From Firmicutes bacterium HGW-Firmicutes-15 (GTDB lineage Bacteria > Bacillota > Syntrophomonadia > Syntrophomonadales > Syntrophomonadaceae): DNA of 64,000 nt. Below, piece after piece: positions 6,823-62,933 of this stretch (its first letter is position 1; the number at the start of each line of letters is the position of its first letter). Under the pieces are notes generated by a model, which saw nothing but the letters and a program-made list of their open reading frames with translations, was not told the DNA's origin and did no database searches. Made by a program: the position numbers and the translations under genes. The stretch spans positions 1 through 64,000 of the forward strand of contig PHAA01000027.1 of NCBI GenBank assembly GCA_002840245.1, given 5' to 3'.

Positions 6823-9704
6823 GAGTGCATGAACTGGCGAAAGAACTCGGGATACCCAGCAAAGAGATGGTTGATACCCTGCAAAAGTTGGGGTTGGATC
6901 TAAAAAATCACATGAGTACGATGGAAGAATCACAGGCTTCCTGGGTTAGAAAGCGGCTGGGTGAAAAAAATGAACCAGCCCCTCAAATAGGACGGCCAGT
7001 TGCTCGGGATGAGCACCCAAGTGCTGAACCCCGGAAGGGCTCTACCACTAGTTCTCCCAGGGTGCAGCAGAATACGGGAATAAATAGAGCGGTTCAACCA
7101 AGACCAGGAAGTAATACCCCAAGCGGACCGGTGGGGCAAGATCCGAAAAAGATATCCCAAGGTAGACAATCGGGTTCACAACCTGATCAATCAGGTATAC
7201 AAGCAATTCAGCCTCCTGAGTTCGAAAGACGTGGTAATGAGGTTAGAAACAATCAGCCCAGACCGATGAGTGGCTCTGATAATCGGCAGGGTGATGTTAG
7301 GCCAGGAGTTGGTCCCAGACCGACAAATGGTCCTGATAATCGGCAGGGTGCCCCTAGACCAGGAATTGGCCCCAGGCCAACCAGCGGCCAGGATAATAGA
7401 CCGGGTGCTCCTAGACCAGGAACTGGCCCCAGGCCAACCAGTGGCCAGGATAATAGGCCGGGTGCTCCTAGACCAGGAATTGGCCCCAGGCCAACCACCG
7501 GCCAGGATAATAGGCAGGATGCCTCTAGACCAGGAACTGGCCCCAGGCCAACCAGTGGCCAGGATAATAGGCAGGGTGCTCCTAGACCAGGAACTGGCCC
7601 CAGGCCAGCCAGTGGCCAGGATAATAGGCAGGGTGCTCCTAGACCAGGAACTGGCCCCAGGCCAACCAGTGGCCAGGATAATAGGCCGGGTGCTCCTAGA
7701 CCAGGAACTGGCCCCAGGCCAACCAGTGGCCAGGATAATAGGCCGGGTGCCCCTAGACCAGGAACTGGCCCCAGGCCAGCAGCTTCAACCCCCACCAGTA
7801 ATCCCGGATTCGGACCAAATAAAAAGCCCGGGTTTGCCAATACTCAGGGTAAACCGCCCAAGAAAGCGGTTCCCCCTAAACCCCAGTTTACTAAAGATTA
7901 CAGCCGACCCCAGAAGAAGGGTAAACATAAAAAGAAAAAAGAGGAAGCAATTTTAGTAACGCCTGATTTAATTACTGTAGGTGATTCCCTCCAGGTAAGA
8001 GAATTAGCAGATAGGCTTGCTAAAGGTTCAGCTGAAATCGTTAAAAAGTTAATGGAACTTGGTATAATGGCAACTATCAATCAGGAGATTGATTATGATA
8101 CTGTAGAGATTATTGCCAGCCTTTATGACGTGGCGGTTGAACGTGAAATCCTCGAAGAACAAAAAATACTGGAAGAAATCGTTGACAGCAAGGAAAGCCT
8201 CTTGCCCCGTTCTCCCATTATTACAGTAATGGGCCATGTTGATCATGGTAAGACCTCATTGCTTGATAAGATTCGTAAAGCAGATGTGGTTTCGGGAGAA
8301 GCCGGGGGGATTACTCAGCATATTGGAGCATATCAGGTAACAGTTAATGATAATCGCATAACATTTATTGATACTCCAGGGCATGCGGCGTTTACGGCTA
8401 TGAGAGCCAGAGGTGCTAACCTTACTGATATAGTAATCCTGGTGGTGGCAGCTGATGACGGGGTTATGCCTCAGACCATAGAAGCGATCAATCACATCAA
8501 AGCTGCTAAAGTTCCCTTTGTAGTGGCTTTGAATAAAATGGATAAGCCCGATGTTAATCCAGACAAGGTAATGCAACAGCTGACTGAATACAATATAGTG
8601 GCTGAAGAGTGGGGCGGCGACACCATGTTTGTACCGGTATCTGCGAAAACTGGTATGGGTATTGATAACCTTTTGGAGAGGGTACTGTTGGTGGCTGAAA
8701 TGCATGAAATAAAGGCTAATCCAGACCGACCCGCCGAAGGCGTCGTGATAGAAGGCGAACTCGATAAAGGGCGCGGCGCGGTAGCCACTTTACTAGTTCA
8801 GAAGGGTACTTTAAAGGTAGGGGACTCCATAATATGTGGGTTTACCTGGTGTAAAGTAAGAGCTATGACTGATTACCGAGGACGTAAGGTTGATATGGCC
8901 TTGCCCTCCATGCCGGTAGAAATTACTGGTTGGTCCGATGTTCCCGAAGTAGGAGAAAAAGTTCAGGTATGTGACGAAAAGATAGCCAAGGAGATAGCCA
9001 GTCTGAGATTGAGTGAGAAGAAGCTAGAAGATCAAAAGCGTAACAGTAAGATTTCGCTGGATGATTTCTACAAGCAAATGGCAACGGGAATGAAAGAATT
9101 GAACCTGATAATAAAGGGCGATGTTCAGGGTTCGATTGAAGCCTTGGCGCAATCATTGCTCAGGCTAAGTACCGGTGAGGTCAAGGTGAATGTTATTCAT
9201 TCAGCAGTAGGAGCCATTACCGAAACCGATGTGATGTTGGCTTCGGCATCCAATGCGATTATTATTGGATTCAATGTTCGACCTGATGTGAAAGCCAGGA
9301 AATATGCCGAAGAGGAGAACATAGATGTTCGTCTGTACCGGGTAATATATGAGGCTATTGATGCTGTGAAGAAAGCTATGGAAGGGCTTCTTGATCCTGA
9401 GTACCGCGAGAAATATCTGGGGCGTGCAGAGGTTAGGGCTACCTTCAAAACGCCTAATGCCGGAACTATTGGTGGTTCTTATGTAATTGACGGCAAGCTA
9501 CAAAGAAATGCTAGCATGAGGGTATTGAGGGATTCAGTCATAGTTTATGAGGGGAAACTTTCATCTTTGAGGCGTTTTAAAGATGACGCTAAGGAAGTCG
9601 TTGAGGGTTATGAATGCGGGATTGGCATCAAAGACTTTAACGATATTAGAGAGGGCGACATTATCGAAGCCTATACTATGGAAGAAATTGCACGAAAACT
9701 TTAA
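6810..9704 (+). CDS. infB: Translation initiation factor IF-2 with a repetitive linker
   Basis: IF-2 (964 residues) is the GTPase that brings initiator tRNA to the ribosome. The first IF2_N domain is at about 1-52. A long Pro/Gly/Arg-rich linker follows, including nine 19-residue repeats (residues 153-323). A second IF2_N domain is at about 390-440. The GTPase has GHVDHGKT (about 473-480), DTPGH and NKMD. Domains II-IV, ending near [15 protein letters not shown], complete it. The protein is longer than Bacillus IF-2 (716 residues) because of the linker. Translation is probably coupled to ylxQ. Confidence 0.97.
7266..7778 (+). repeat. Nine tandem 57-bp repeats within infB
   Basis: Nine in-frame 57-bp units encode variants of the 19-residue unit [19 protein letters not shown]. 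The first two units are the most diverged ([10 protein letters not shown]..., TNGPDNRQG...). The later ones differ by only a few bases. This pattern fits recent tandem expansion by slippage or unequal recombination, and copy number is likely to vary between strains. Confidence 0.95.
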
Positions 9705-13523: not shown

Positions 13524-13530
13524 AACTTTA

Positions 13531-13737
13531 GGGACTGTTAGGGAATAAAGTGGGAAGAATACTCCGAGTATGTTTCGTGTTAGACAAGGCGTCACCCTTC
13601 GGGTACTACTGGTGCCACCTGGCGGTCGCCAATAATGTTGCAAAGTGCGGTCATACTAAACGTATGACAAGCTTTGATAACGAAGTATAACGCGAAAAAG
13701 ACCGGAGTAAATTACCAATTTATCCCCTTACAATCCC
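13531..13737 (+). mobile_element. MITE-like element E1 between rpsO and pnp
   Basis: This 207-bp non-coding element is bounded by imperfect 19-bp inverted repeats (GGGACTGTTAGGGAATAAA; 16 of 19 match the other end). Inside each end lies a second inverted block (ACTCCG...TTTCGTG...). The centre holds one copy of the 48-bp unit (13593-13642 with flanking CA). It is related to the elements at 16870-17129, 35220-35574 and 48383-48458. It carries no transposase and no clear target duplication. It ends 26 bases before the inferred pnp start, so it sits inside the pnp leader. Confidence 0.82.
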
Positions 13738-16059: not shown

Positions 16060-16887
16060 ATTAAATTAGATAGCCGAACCCTTTTTCTTGTGTCCTTTTT
16101 TATTAGTTTAACACTGATAACAACTTGGATGGATCGAATAGAACGCGACTTATTAGGTGTTCGGGAAGGAGTTACGGTTGAGAATGTCAAGGTGGAAAGA
16201 CTACTTCCGGGAGAACTCCGCGGGGTAGTCGAAGAGATGGCCATAAGATATCAGAAACTACCGATTGAGCCCCGATTAGACCAAGACACAGGGGGTATCA
16301 TTGCCGAAGAATCTGGAATCAGTGTCGATGTGGACAAAACTTTAGCGCAAATCCAAGCAGCTGCACCCGGGCAAATAGTTCAACTAGAAATTATAACCAG
16401 CCAACCTCTTCATCGAAGCCAAGATATTGCGAACGCTAAGCATCCCATAGCGGGGTATCAGACCTGGTTTCATGGTAGTGCGGAAAGATATAATAATATT
16501 TCAGTAGCACTGAAAAGTATAAACAATACTCTGGTATGGCCTGGGGAAGTATTTTCGTTTAATGAGGCTACCGGGCCTAGAACGCCAGAGAGGGGGTATC
16601 TTCCTGCTCCTATTATCTTAAACGGAGGATATGATGTAGGGTACGGGGGAGGTGTCTGCCAGGTATCCAGTACTTTATATAATGCTGCTTTGATAGCTAA
16701 GCTGCCCATCATTGAACGACATGCGCATACTAAGCCCGTTCACTATGTTCCCGAGGGGAGAGATGCCACAGTTAATTTTGGTTATTTAGACTTGAAATTC
16801 ATAAATAATCGGGATGGCCCACTCATAGTTAAGACTACCTTGCAGAATGGCCGTATATATGTGGAGTTAAGGACTATCAAGAAATAA
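16060..16887 (+). CDS. VanW family protein, probably membrane anchored
   Basis: The protein has a VanW domain: FNEATGPRTPERGYLPAPIILNGGYDVGYGGGVCQVSSTLYNAAL, then [27 protein letters not shown]. VanW proteins occur in glycopeptide-resistance clusters and near sporulation genes; their biochemical role is unknown. The first standard start is GTG 16090, which has no ribosome site and cuts the N-terminal helix (TLFLVSFFISLTLITTW). The frame is open upstream to an ATT at 16060, nine bases after GAGAGGG (16044-16050). That gives 275 residues, against 265 from the GTG. An ATG at 16055 is out of frame and stops after four codons. The final codons (TIKK and stop) lie in the end repeat of element E2. 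Confidence 0.78.
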   Translation: MKLDSRTLFLVSFFISLTLITTWMDRIERDLLGVREGVTVENVKVERLLPGELRGVVEEMAIRYQKLPIEPRLDQDTGGIIAEESGISVDVDKTLAQIQAAAPGQIVQLEIITSQPLHRSQDIANAKHPIAGYQTWFHGSAERYNNISVALKSINNTLVWPGEVFSFNEATGPRTPERGYLPAPIILNGGYDVGYGGGVCQVSSTLYNAALIAKLPIIERHAHTKPVHYVPEGRDATVNFGYLDLKFINNRDGPLIVKTTLQNGRIYVELRTIKK

Positions 16888-17129
16888 ACTAGTCATTTAC
16901 TCAGGTATTTTTCTTAGCTCATACTTCGTTATCAAAACGCGATAATACCCTCCAGTATTACCACGTTTTGCAACATTATTGGCGACCACTAGGGAGCACC
17001 AGCAACCTTAATAGTGAGCTGATGCGAACACCAGAAGTCCCCGAAGGGGGTAGTGCCCGGAGGGTGACGCCTTGTCTAGCACGAAAAATACTCGGAGTAT
17101 TCTGCCTTATTCATTCCTGGATAGTCCCT
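16870..17129 (-). mobile_element. MITE-like element E2 between vanW and the deacetylase gene
   Basis: This 260-bp element lies in the opposite orientation to E1. Its reverse complement closely matches the element at 35220-35574, including identical internal blocks. The ends are AGGACTATCAAGAAATAA (16870-16887) and TAGTCCCT (17122-17129). A 98-base segment (16969-17066) is a 50-base core holding a nested 48-base copy of itself. The left end codes for the vanW C-terminus and stop codon. The right end stops five bases before the GGGGAG ribosome site of the next gene. Confidence 0.83.
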
Positions 17130-17150
17130 AAGAGGGGAGAAATGATTTGT

Positions 17151-34901: not shown

Positions 34902-35219
34902 TGTATTAACCCTCCTTTGAATAGAGGGCTATATACCGAACAGGCGGTGTAATATAACCCTACTATTAATATGGTAGTTATTTACGCAAGTTATGAGTGA
35001 CGATCGATATGCAGGTATAGGTTCCATTTCACCACCGCCTTTCGTGCATGATAGTGTTTATTCTGACTAAAATCAGTAGGGGACAGCCTAAGTGGTGTCC
35101 TAAGGGGCTATCAAGAGATATAGTCCCTAAGCTAATAATATACATTTTCCTGATGAATGTTGTCAATCTGCCTATTCATGAGTTTGGATAATTAATCTAA
35201 TAAATGGGAAAAATGATAA
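34902..35219. other. Non-coding upstream region of corA
   Basis: About 320 bases between corA (-) and element E3. No open frame of interest was seen, and no M-box or other known magnesium riboswitch was recognised on the corA strand. Near 35081-35103 is a GGGGACA...TGTCCT fragment resembling the palindrome family at 37634 and 42798. At 35103-35128, GGGGCTATCAA and TATAGTCCC lie almost back to back, like a collapsed copy of the E-family ends. Confidence 0.5.
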
Positions 35220-35574
35220 GGGACTATCACCCTTCGGGTACCACTGGTGTTCGCTAGCGCTTACTAATAATGTTGCAAGGAATAAACAAGGCAGAATAGT
35301 CCGAGGATTTGACGTCCAAGGATGGACTAATGCAGCGGTGCCATGGATGGCAAAGAGCTGCTTCGTGCTAGACAAGGCGTCACCCTCCGGGCACTACCCC
35401 CTTCGGGGACTTCTGGTGTTCGCATCAGCTCACTATTAAGGTTGCTGGTGCTCCCTAGCGGTCGCCAATAATGTTGCAAAGCGCAGTAATACTAGACGTA
35501 TTTCAAGATTTGAGAACGAAGTATAGCACGAAAAAGACCGGAGTGAATGACTAGTTTATTTCTTGATAGTCCCT
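35220..35574 (+). mobile_element. MITE-like element E3 upstream of PBP1A
   Basis: This is the longest family member, at 355 bp. Its ends are GGGACTATCA (35220) and TTTCTTGATAGTCCC. It contains two copies of the 50-base core, 35228-35277 and 35381-35478. The second core is split after 17 bases by an exact 48-base nested copy (35398-35445). Compared with E2 it carries an extra segment (about 35290-35365). It ends six bases before the PBP1A ribosome site, so it forms most of that gene's leader. Confidence 0.83.
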
Positions 35575-35592
35575 ATGGATGGAGGAACATAT

Positions 35593-37586: not shown

Positions 37587-37662
37587 GTAAGGTATTGGGA
37601 CACACCTCTTTCAGAGGAATGTTGTAAGGTATTGGGACACACCTCTTTCAGAGGAATGTCCC
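37587..37662. repeat. Tandem duplicate of a GGGACA...TGTCCC palindrome
   Basis: A 36-base unit (37587-37622) is repeated exactly at 37624-37659. The second copy completes a palindrome: GGGACA-CA-CCTCT-TTC-AGAGG-AA-TGTCCC (37634-37662). The same arm sequences occur in a larger array at 42798-42917. It lies 24 bases after the PBP1A stop and may also act as its terminator. Confidence 0.8.
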
Positions 37663-47507: not shown

Positions 47508-47578
47508 GTCATCCTGAGGATCAGCGAAGGATCTTTCCCCTAAGCGTGGGGAAGATTCTTCACTTCGTTCAGAATGAC
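47508..47578. repeat. Palindromic dispersed repeat, copy 2 (complete)
   Basis: A 71-base palindrome from GTCATCCTGAGG to TTCAGAATGAC. Its arms pair across a CCCC-TAAGCGT-GGGG loop. It is the same family as the window start (1-64). It lies between the TIGR04086 gene and the ZIP transporter gene in non-coding DNA. Confidence 0.88.
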
Positions 47579-47674
47579 AACTCTTATCTAAAGATATATC
47601 ACGAGGCTAACAGAATAAGCATTTCATCCCCCACATAGACATGGTATATATTGTTTGCAGGTGGGGTGTGGGTT

Positions 47675-62300: not shown

Positions 62301-62933
62301 CTGATGCCAGGTGGAATATTCTATTTTAAGATTGATGACCCTCTGATTAATACCGAATCCAAGGTAGTGGAGACAATTGAGAAAGAAATTGCCAAAAAGC
62401 TGAAAATGACGGGGTTGGCTTTGGAAGATGTGAGACTGGTTCGCCAATTGGATCGCGAAATCGGGAAGAGTTCGGAAATACTGCCGATAGCTTTAACTAA
62501 GGATGAAGGTTTTACAAAGAATTCATCCGTGTTACCACAGGAGGATTTCATGGCCCTAATCAGCCATGTTGAGGGACTTCTCCAGGAAATTGGCCGGGAG
62601 ATCATGCGTGGCAAGGTGAAAATCGAGCCGATTAATGACGGCCTCCGGACGGCCTGTACCTTCTGCTCCTACCGAGCTGTTTGTCAGTTTGATCGCTTGT
62701 TGGAGGATAATAACTACAGAAATATTAAGCCTTTGAAGGACGAGGAAGTCATTACCCGGATTCGCCCTGCGGGCACTTCTGGTGCTCCCACCCTTCACCC
62801 TTCGGGTACTCCTGATGTTCGCGATAGCTCACCAATAATGTTGCACCCTGCGGGTACTCCTGATGGCAGCACACTATCACTGCCAAAGTTGGACGGGACA
62901 AAGGAGGGGACTGAACTTGCGAGAGTGGACTGA
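59358..62933 (+). CDS. addB: ATP-dependent helicase/nuclease subunit B (AddB) with in-frame repeat insertions
   Basis: AddB (1191 residues) works with AddA to resect double-strand breaks before recombination. The N-terminal Walker motif is GRAGMGKS (8-15). The C-terminal nuclease has RIDRVDLL and KIIDYKSG. The iron-sulfur cluster cysteines are in VSCPFAHF and in CTFCSYRAVC. Residues 153-169 (HPSGTPDAPGGSLIMLH) and the tail 1137-1191 are translated copies of the 48-bp repeat found in the window's MITE-like elements. Both keep the frame open. The tail carries the addA ribosome site. The TTG start follows a GGGGGTG site. Confidence 0.93.
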   Translation: MAIRFILGRAGMGKSHHILQEIKENLKDDGEDRLILLVPEQFTLQSERDLIQKLKLPGIMRVEVLSFTRLAQRVFNEVGGLTRTLLNEQGKNMVLRKMIDEVARDLSIYKKAVQQDGFVSKFSELLSELKQQDILPAQLLASMEGEEELIIKHPSGTPDAPGGSLIMLHKIHDIALIYEHFNEYLQGRYLDTEDYLNLLIDKIDGAQFLKGARVWLDGFTTFSPQSLKILKKIMFLARDTTISLSLDGNRQARDSDLFTLSWRSFQKIQAIAREHGLAEETIRLNGAAADSMKSPEILHVESELYAYPNRIFPGDVQHLELFAATNINSELEYVAAQILKLVREQGYRWRDLAVVCNNMDSYGSLFKRVFDEYSIPYFMDQKRDIMNNPLIQLILSSLEVIRRGYRYEDVFRFFKTGYSGLTGDDIEKLENFVLRYGIQGQGWKQEFFLDQSEPLEELNRWRETFIIPIQKLENQVKGKNSIAYITRAFYEYLEDIGVHARLQEWIEKLNDENRYELVRENTQIWNIVLEIFDQMVEIMGDQEVNIKEYLRILEAGFLSQEVGIIPTTIDQVLVGNIQRSKSHDIRGLLVVGVNDGVLPSGQEEEGILSETEKVLLLNKGVDLGFDLNRKLSEERFLIYTALTKPTEYLGLSFALADMEGKALRPSLLINRCQKIFPGLQIESDVVNNYFHELNKVSASNSTFKYLVENLRLRLDGKASEEFWWDVYAWFYGQEAWQERLSSVIDGLFHRNQAAFIGSENAHKLYHLPLHSTVSRVEQFVSCPFAHFVRYGLKPQERKIFAVGAPDVGELFHNCLQSFALKLREEHINWSELQRVECESIMDGIMDEMAPVHGHGVFASTHRYQYLMKRLKRISRRAVWTLTTHLQHGDFKPLDFEVSFGPGCPFPAIKIEIGNGEIFYLVGRIDRVDLLDEEGGTFVKIIDYKSGNQKFSLSDVYYGLSLQLMIYLQAVLASHHQLQRPQLMPGGIFYFKIDDPLINTESKVVETIEKEIAKKLKMTGLALEDVRLVRQLDREIGKSSEILPIALTKDEGFTKNSSVLPQEDFMALISHVEGLLQEIGREIMRGKVKIEPINDGLRTACTFCSYRAVCQFDRLLEDNNYRNIKPLKDEEVITRIRPAGTSGAPTLHPSGTPDVRDSSPIMLHPAGTPDGSTLSLPKLDGTKEGTELARVD
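59814..59863 (+). repeat. 48-bp unit inserted in addB (internal copy)
   Basis: This 50-base core (a 48-base unit with flanking CA) matches the core of element E1 (13593-13642) at 42 of 50 positions. The first 14 and last 12 bases are identical. In this frame it encodes HPSGTPDAPGGSLIMLH, placed before KIHDIALIYEHF, where AddB proteins normally have no such segment. Confidence 0.85.
62764..62880 (+). repeat. Tandem 48-bp units forming the AddB C-terminal tail
   Basis: A partial unit (from 62764), a full 50-base core (62796-62845) and another partial unit (from 62844) lie in tandem; the last two share CA, giving a 48-base period. Translated, they read RPAGTSGAPTLH, PSGTPDVRDSSPIMLH and PAGTPDGSTLS. 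They fall between the end of the conserved AddB sequence (FDRLLEDNNYRNIKPLKDEEV) and the addA start. Confidence 0.85.

Follow-up and report, generated by a model that had tools for sequence, protein, structure and literature searches.

Small dispersed repeats (SDR) of Nostoc, which Elhai et al. are said to have described in 2008, are reportedly shorter than 100 nt, dispersed and folded into a hairpin that is kept by compensatory change. They are also said to occur within their own copies and near heptamer arrays, and to be confined to one clade; their reported length is 21-27 nt and their reported hosts are cyanobacteria. Elements of the IS200/IS605 type have neither terminal inverted repeats nor target duplication, carry subterminal hairpins and insert in one orientation 3′ of a fixed short motif.

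Other short repeats show related features. Insertion into or beside existing copies is reported for REPINs in PMC3733652 and PMC3116915. Rickettsia palindromic elements (RPE) are described in PMC2229807 as single stem-loops of 105-146 bp with terminal inverted repeats, located in frame in conserved protein genes. The GC clusters of yeast mitochondria, according to PMC4478555, are dispersed hairpin-forming sequences of about 40-50 nt that occur in tandem and merged arrays and are flanked by AG or ACT direct repeats.

Here we describe a small repeat unit found in the window (the whole 64,000-nt stretch of DNA that was analysed) and in related genomes. By analogy, this unit appears to work like a cyanobacterial SDR. 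Set against the reported SDR features, the unit is likewise shorter than 100 nt, dispersed (at least 80-81 copies in the source genome), subject to compensatory change (hairpin 2) and found within its own copies (38/250). Proximity to heptamer arrays and confinement to one clade are further common traits. In a comparison of descriptions only, it differs from the reported SDR by its length of 47-54 nt, its two hairpins, its occurrence in Syntrophomonadaceae, its C^ target rule and its in-frame gene insertions. Insertion 3′ of a short motif, in one orientation and without duplication, recalls IS200/IS605, as a likeness rather than a membership, whereas the unit is far smaller, its motif has about three bases and no transposase gene lies inside or beside it. 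As short hairpin repeats in many copies, REPs and REPINs (as presented in PMC3733652 and PMC3116915) are also similar. However, the unit ends carry no GTAG/CGTC tag, the sole CTAC/GTAG-like spot being internal with A as third base in 43 of 71 copies; in addition, inverted pairs are absent (37 same, 0 opposite where heads are split), most copies are solo and they do not lie beside the Y1 genes examined. The unit resembles RPE in its in-frame insertion in protein genes, here addB and addA, but has 48 nt, two hairpins and no terminal inverted repeat. Size, hairpins, dispersal and tandem or merged arrays are shared with the GC clusters, in contrast to which there is no duplication beyond a possible single C. 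Unlike a MITE, the unit lacks both terminal inverted repeats and target-site duplication.

Results

Nested composites and other repeats in the window

The units of the window are collected in Table 1. In the larger repeat E3, host segments of 16 and 32 bases, exactly 48 together, surround a complete related 48-base unit (composite 35382-35477). A preliminary description had reported here a 50-base core split 17/33 by a 48-base unit; the splitting unit (35398-35445) was found as described, whereas the core is 48 bases long (16 + 32), the figure of 50 counting one flanking base per side. The same description had assigned this composite to E2, where it is indeed present on the minus strand with one host base different (16970-17065), and had seen units joined head to tail with a 48-base period in addB. 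The latter start at 62797 and 62845, the second copy being degenerate, and are preceded by a truncated host half and a 7-base stub. The 20-base head of the unit matched eight times in the window, against a mean of 0.00 in 100 shuffles.

Table 1. Units and unit parts located in the window
Feature	Position	Strand	Basis or remark
E3 host unit, first 16 bases	35382-35397	+	
E3 nested unit, 48 nt, after host base 16	35398-35445	+	same letters in E2 and G000:C84 (L010)
E3 host unit, last 32 bases	35446-35477	+	
Solo unit, left end of larger repeat E3	35229-35276	+	E3 right end is the empty form
E2 nested unit, 48 nt	17002-17049	-	
E2 host unit, last 32 bases	16970-17001	-	
E2 host unit, first 16 bases	17050-17065	-	
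Solo unit in larger repeat E1	13594-13641	+	sister copies of the repeat include empty forms
Solo unit within addB, in frame, +16 residues	59815-59862	+	empty in G001, three units in G006
Truncated host half (26 nt) and 7-nt stub, addB 3′ end	62764-62796	+	
Unit, addB 3′ end	62797-62844	+	
Degenerate unit, head to tail with the 62797-62844 unit, addB/addA junction	62845-62893	+	

The window also contains other repeats. E3 (35218-35575), E2 (16868-17131) and E1 (13528-13737) belong to a larger dispersed repeat with inverted ends AGGGACTATCAAG(A/G)AATAAA, which measures about 215 bp without the small units in E3 and has many genome copies, with and without small units; it looks like a separate MITE. 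A 57-bp tandem repeat of about nine copies (7200-7835) lies inside a 964-aa open frame, where it forms 19-residue repeats. An identical, hairpin-like 73-bp sequence (GATCTTTCCCC...GGGGAAGATTC) occurs at 1-73 and 47515-47587, 47.5 kb apart, and a perfect 37-bp tandem duplication (37587-37659) is located in non-coding DNA after a penicillin-binding protein gene.

Anatomy of the unit

We derived the anatomy from 41 distinct equal-length copies and 71 non-redundant copies of all lengths. On one strand, the unit comprises hairpin 1 (ACCC-TNC-GGGT, with a CCCC...GGGG stem in a few copies), the linker ACTMCTGRTG, a variable hairpin 2 and a conserved 3′ tail, ATTAAGGTTGC. Its ends are ACCC and GTTGC, and terminal inverted repeats are absent, as ACCCT... 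and ...GGTTGC are not complementary. Hairpin 2 covaried strongly, with C-G vs T-A and C-G vs G-C exchanges. Both helices together presented 39 doubly changed cells vs 11.9 in shuffles, a value that 0/500 shuffles reached, and sliding the helix partners abolished the signal. The RNA fold energy of five single copies was in no case clearly better than that of shuffles, and wobble asymmetry, inspected by eye in the 71 non-redundant copies as a means of telling RNA from DNA, revealed no clear difference.

The unit length, which had been taken as fixed, turned out to vary. Among the 182 of 207 copies with a recognised end, 61 measured 53 nt, 59 measured 48 nt, 50 measured 47 nt and 12 had other lengths; rows near locus ends or N runs were dropped before this count and before those of empty sites, hairpin loops, target profile, orientation and strand. 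Units mostly range from 47 to 54 nt, their length following the size of hairpin 2, and 48 nt is the usual length in the source genome (38 of its 51 clean copies) rather than a family-wide constant.

Distribution

The covariance model found at least 80-81 copies in the source genome and matches in 28 of 61 genomes, namely 26 of 37 Syntrophomonadaceae, two of nine from the rest of the order and none of 15 from the rest of the phylum. In an even sample of 299 phylum genomes, at least eight had matches at E <= 1e-6, six of those being Syntrophomonadaceae. These model counts are lower bounds, with 99 candidates scored per genome in the 61-genome survey, 150 in the source genome and 20 in the 299-genome sample. 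Named records with the unit head were mostly Syntrophomonas or Syntrophomonadaceae among the matches listed. We regard the unit as a dispersed element of a single family, the Syntrophomonadaceae. Copies were collected by their head pattern, so the set consists of copies with an unchanged head. Two Bacteroidales loci (L079 and L108) considered as copies matched in the head, without a tail, and are probably due to chance. No Rfam family reached its gathering score within the window, searches of phages and plasmids with the E3 unit were negative at E <= 0.01, and listings of the open-licence PMC literature on Syntrophomonas repeats, palindromes or miniature elements showed no description of the unit.

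The exact sequence of the E3 insert recurs at L010 in the source genome, in a diverged host unit whose flanks are different; another unit of this genome is also identical at two sites. We infer that the unit was mobile in fairly recent time. One small contig of the same genome (L196, G000:C38:4700-7250) bears at least three units in 2.5 kb, of which two lie antisense within open frames.

Positions of nesting and the target rule

In the source and related genomes, 38 of 250 copies lay inside another copy. When head and tail profiles were used and all break points from 2 to 47 were allowed, hosts were broken only after bases 7 (23 copies), 16 (9) and 26 (6); a second tally, with slightly different thresholds and covering the breaks ahead of the tail, gave 22, 10 and 6 at the same positions. 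Insertion thus uses three internal positions plus the ends, instead of the one constant internal position for which the preliminary description had proposed a test. Shuffled-flank controls produced nesting in 0/5,000 and 0/12,500 cases. Where heads were split, 37 inserts had the orientation of the host and none the opposite one. A three-level nest was present in addA of the source genome, just past the window (L055), in which one unit sits in a second that itself sits in a third. The heptamer ACCCTGC corresponds to the stub left of host site 7. In S. wolfei-type genomes it forms short tandem runs directly ahead of nested units (L070, L221, L234 and L174), and their number varies between orthologues.

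At 55 independent sites outside units, C preceded the insertion in 52, T or G stood one base further back in 45, and the second base after the insertion was A or G in 42. The target consensus is [T/G]C^N[A/G], and its best form (A)[T/G]C^N[A/G]. A profile made from non-unit sites only was run along 68 distinct 48-nt units and placed positions 48, 0, 7, 4, 16, 36 and 26 at the top. The used sites 7, 16 and 26 ranked among the top five of the 47 internal positions, which three positions picked at random would do with a probability of about 6e-4. This indicates that self-nesting follows the general target rule, and no special self-recognition is needed to explain where it occurs. Positions 4 and 36 also had a high target score, and no insertions were seen at them. 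Most units read TAC at site 16, and TTC hosts were enriched among those split there (6/10 vs 4/68, p = 1.4e-4), as they were with E2 and E3 counted once (6/9, p = 6e-5). A general targeting of hairpin loops, an idea drawn from sites 7 and 26, was unsupported outside units (64 clusters, mean rank 0.54, p = 0.26).

Nesting nevertheless occurs much more often than the target rule by itself predicts. It affected 16 of 61 copies in the source genome vs 0.3-0.7 expected if insertions land anywhere in non-coding DNA, an expectation that assumes a 10-20% non-coding genome.

Empty sites and insertions in addB and addA

Relatives carry the empty sites that the preliminary description had proposed to look for. 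Genome G001 reads CTCAAAC^AAAAAA at the addB site, without a unit; the source genome has one 48-nt unit there and G006 three different 48-nt units in tandem, each unit adding 16 residues in frame. Within the DNA compared, 65 of 239 copies had a flank-matched site free of the unit, and these cases are not independent because the larger repeats are multi-copy. Gaps at empty sites were 0, 48 or 96 in the larger repeats of the source genus, and also -2 to +2 in S. wolfei repeats. One locus of genome G026 and its orthologue, the methylbutyratica locus L177, differed by one 53-nt unit and one ACCCTGC heptamer. Target duplication was absent at empty sites, or was at most an undecidable single C.

Compared with G001, AddB has an internal 16-residue block and an extended C-terminus, the block falling in a stretch that requires a gap in the alignment with the solved AddB chain 3u44_B. 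AddA contains a block of three units in antisense and a sense block of 16 residues, both absent from G012. According to PMC3733652, REPs lie inside recB of Xanthomonas, which represents a parallel in an enzyme analogous to AddAB.

Search for a mover

No transposase linked to the unit was found in the genomes surveyed. Y1 genes occurred in 37 of 61 genomes. Across the 37 family genomes, unit number correlated with Y1 number (Spearman 0.52, p = 0.001; 0.37 given genome size, p = 0.023; shared descent ignored) and with genome size (Spearman 0.60), and did not correlate with IS110 transposases. Among 10 of the 13 Y1 genes of G000, G006 and G026 that were examined, none was flanked by a unit, one weak half-head apart. 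This half-head (L211, G000:C65), tailless and about 550 bp from the Y1 gene, is probably chance or a remnant. The draft genomes G011 and G014, with 54 and 30 units, showed no Y1 match. We also considered an autonomous parent flanked by unit halves; the orphan heads looked like degenerate solos, copies beside masked or cut sequence, or chance, and none enclosed a gene.

Discussion

The exact ends, the exact empty sites and the precise nesting argue for a specific insertion process and not for random duplication, as the preliminary description had suggested when it postulated a defined unit. Most likely, the unit is a tiny non-autonomous mobile element that lacks terminal inverted repeats and is inserted whole, 3′ of C, under a general target rule. 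It would enter immediately 3′ of C with, at most, the undecidable single C duplicated, and the TGC at its own end would recreate a target site. Since host bases 7, 16 and 26 and both copy ends are acceptable targets under the general rule, copies would nest and stack.

Other origins were weighed against this insertion process. Tandem duplication and replication slippage in a minisatellite that was later scrambled could mimic nesting, and head-to-tail arrays with a period of 47-53 bases do exist: 34 of 250 copies adjoin another unit in this way without nesting, and one G007 array gave five model matches with one identical score. Some of these arrays may well be ordinary tandem duplications. However, tandem duplication would not produce a sequence that passes from host base 16 (or 7, or 26) to unit base 1 and afterwards continues with the following base of the host, and solo copies are found at unrelated sites that are empty elsewhere, so that we disfavour slippage as a very improbable source of the composites. 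An unlikely, less extreme alternative is that one or a few old insertions gave rise to the composites, with the larger repeats or gene conversion between units making the copies. E2 and E3 probably do represent one event, because they are 96% alike over 135 nt and have the composite in common, but hosts, inserts and outer flanks differ among the nested copies, which come from several genomes, and the diverged host at L010 received the very insert of E3 between other flanks.

The route of movement could involve RNA, with reverse splicing or reverse transcription carrying a transcribed copy into new sites, a mechanism put forward for other tiny repeats. The fold is conserved on one strand and reverse transcriptases are present in 28 of 61 genomes, which would agree with such a route. 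Nevertheless, a sense-strand bias is missing. Of 85 independent sites, 15 lay in open frames, 8 sense and 7 antisense, and the two same-direction intergenic contexts held 24 and 25 sites (from simple ORF calls, with some composites parsed as 46-nt units). This lack of strand bias relative to genes is expected of insertion at the DNA level. In addition, unit number was hardly related to reverse-transcriptase number (Spearman 0.24, p = 0.15), and G006, G007, G011, G025, G032 and G035 have at least 20 units but no reverse-transcriptase match, leaving the RNA route with a low probability in our view. Service by RAYT transposases, as for a REP/REPIN-type repeat, would suit a short, dispersed, hairpin-forming sequence that is sometimes inside genes, in genomes where Y1 genes are present. 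The missing conserved GTAG end tag, the absence of inverted doublets and the lack of flanking units at the Y1 genes examined refute membership by the features tested, and we hold this relationship to be quite unlikely.

For the insertion of whole units into DNA, we propose as a tentative guess that a Y1/HUH (IS200/IS605-like) transposase, acting in trans on a folded single strand, might perform strand-specific cutting after C at both ends. This guess is based on the exact ends, the C at both junctions, the lack of duplication, the one orientation and the one-strand fold. A bolder and somewhat more doubtful possibility is that the unit stands for an undescribed class of minimal mobile element. 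Such an element would be a two-hairpin DNA strand of 47-54 nt that is cut 3′ of C at each end, goes in behind [T/G]C^ and recreates its own target, thereby building multi-level nests. It would supply conserved proteins of a single bacterial family with in-frame blocks of 16 residues, and a trans-acting enzyme whose partnership with it has yet to be recognised would move it.

Mobile elements so small are rarely described. In the present case the sequence itself reveals the unit together with its ends, target rule and empty sites, and it does so in a family with cultured species, which makes the mover directly testable. The unit also represents a route by which the conserved repair proteins AddA and AddB gain 16-residue blocks, singly or in threes.
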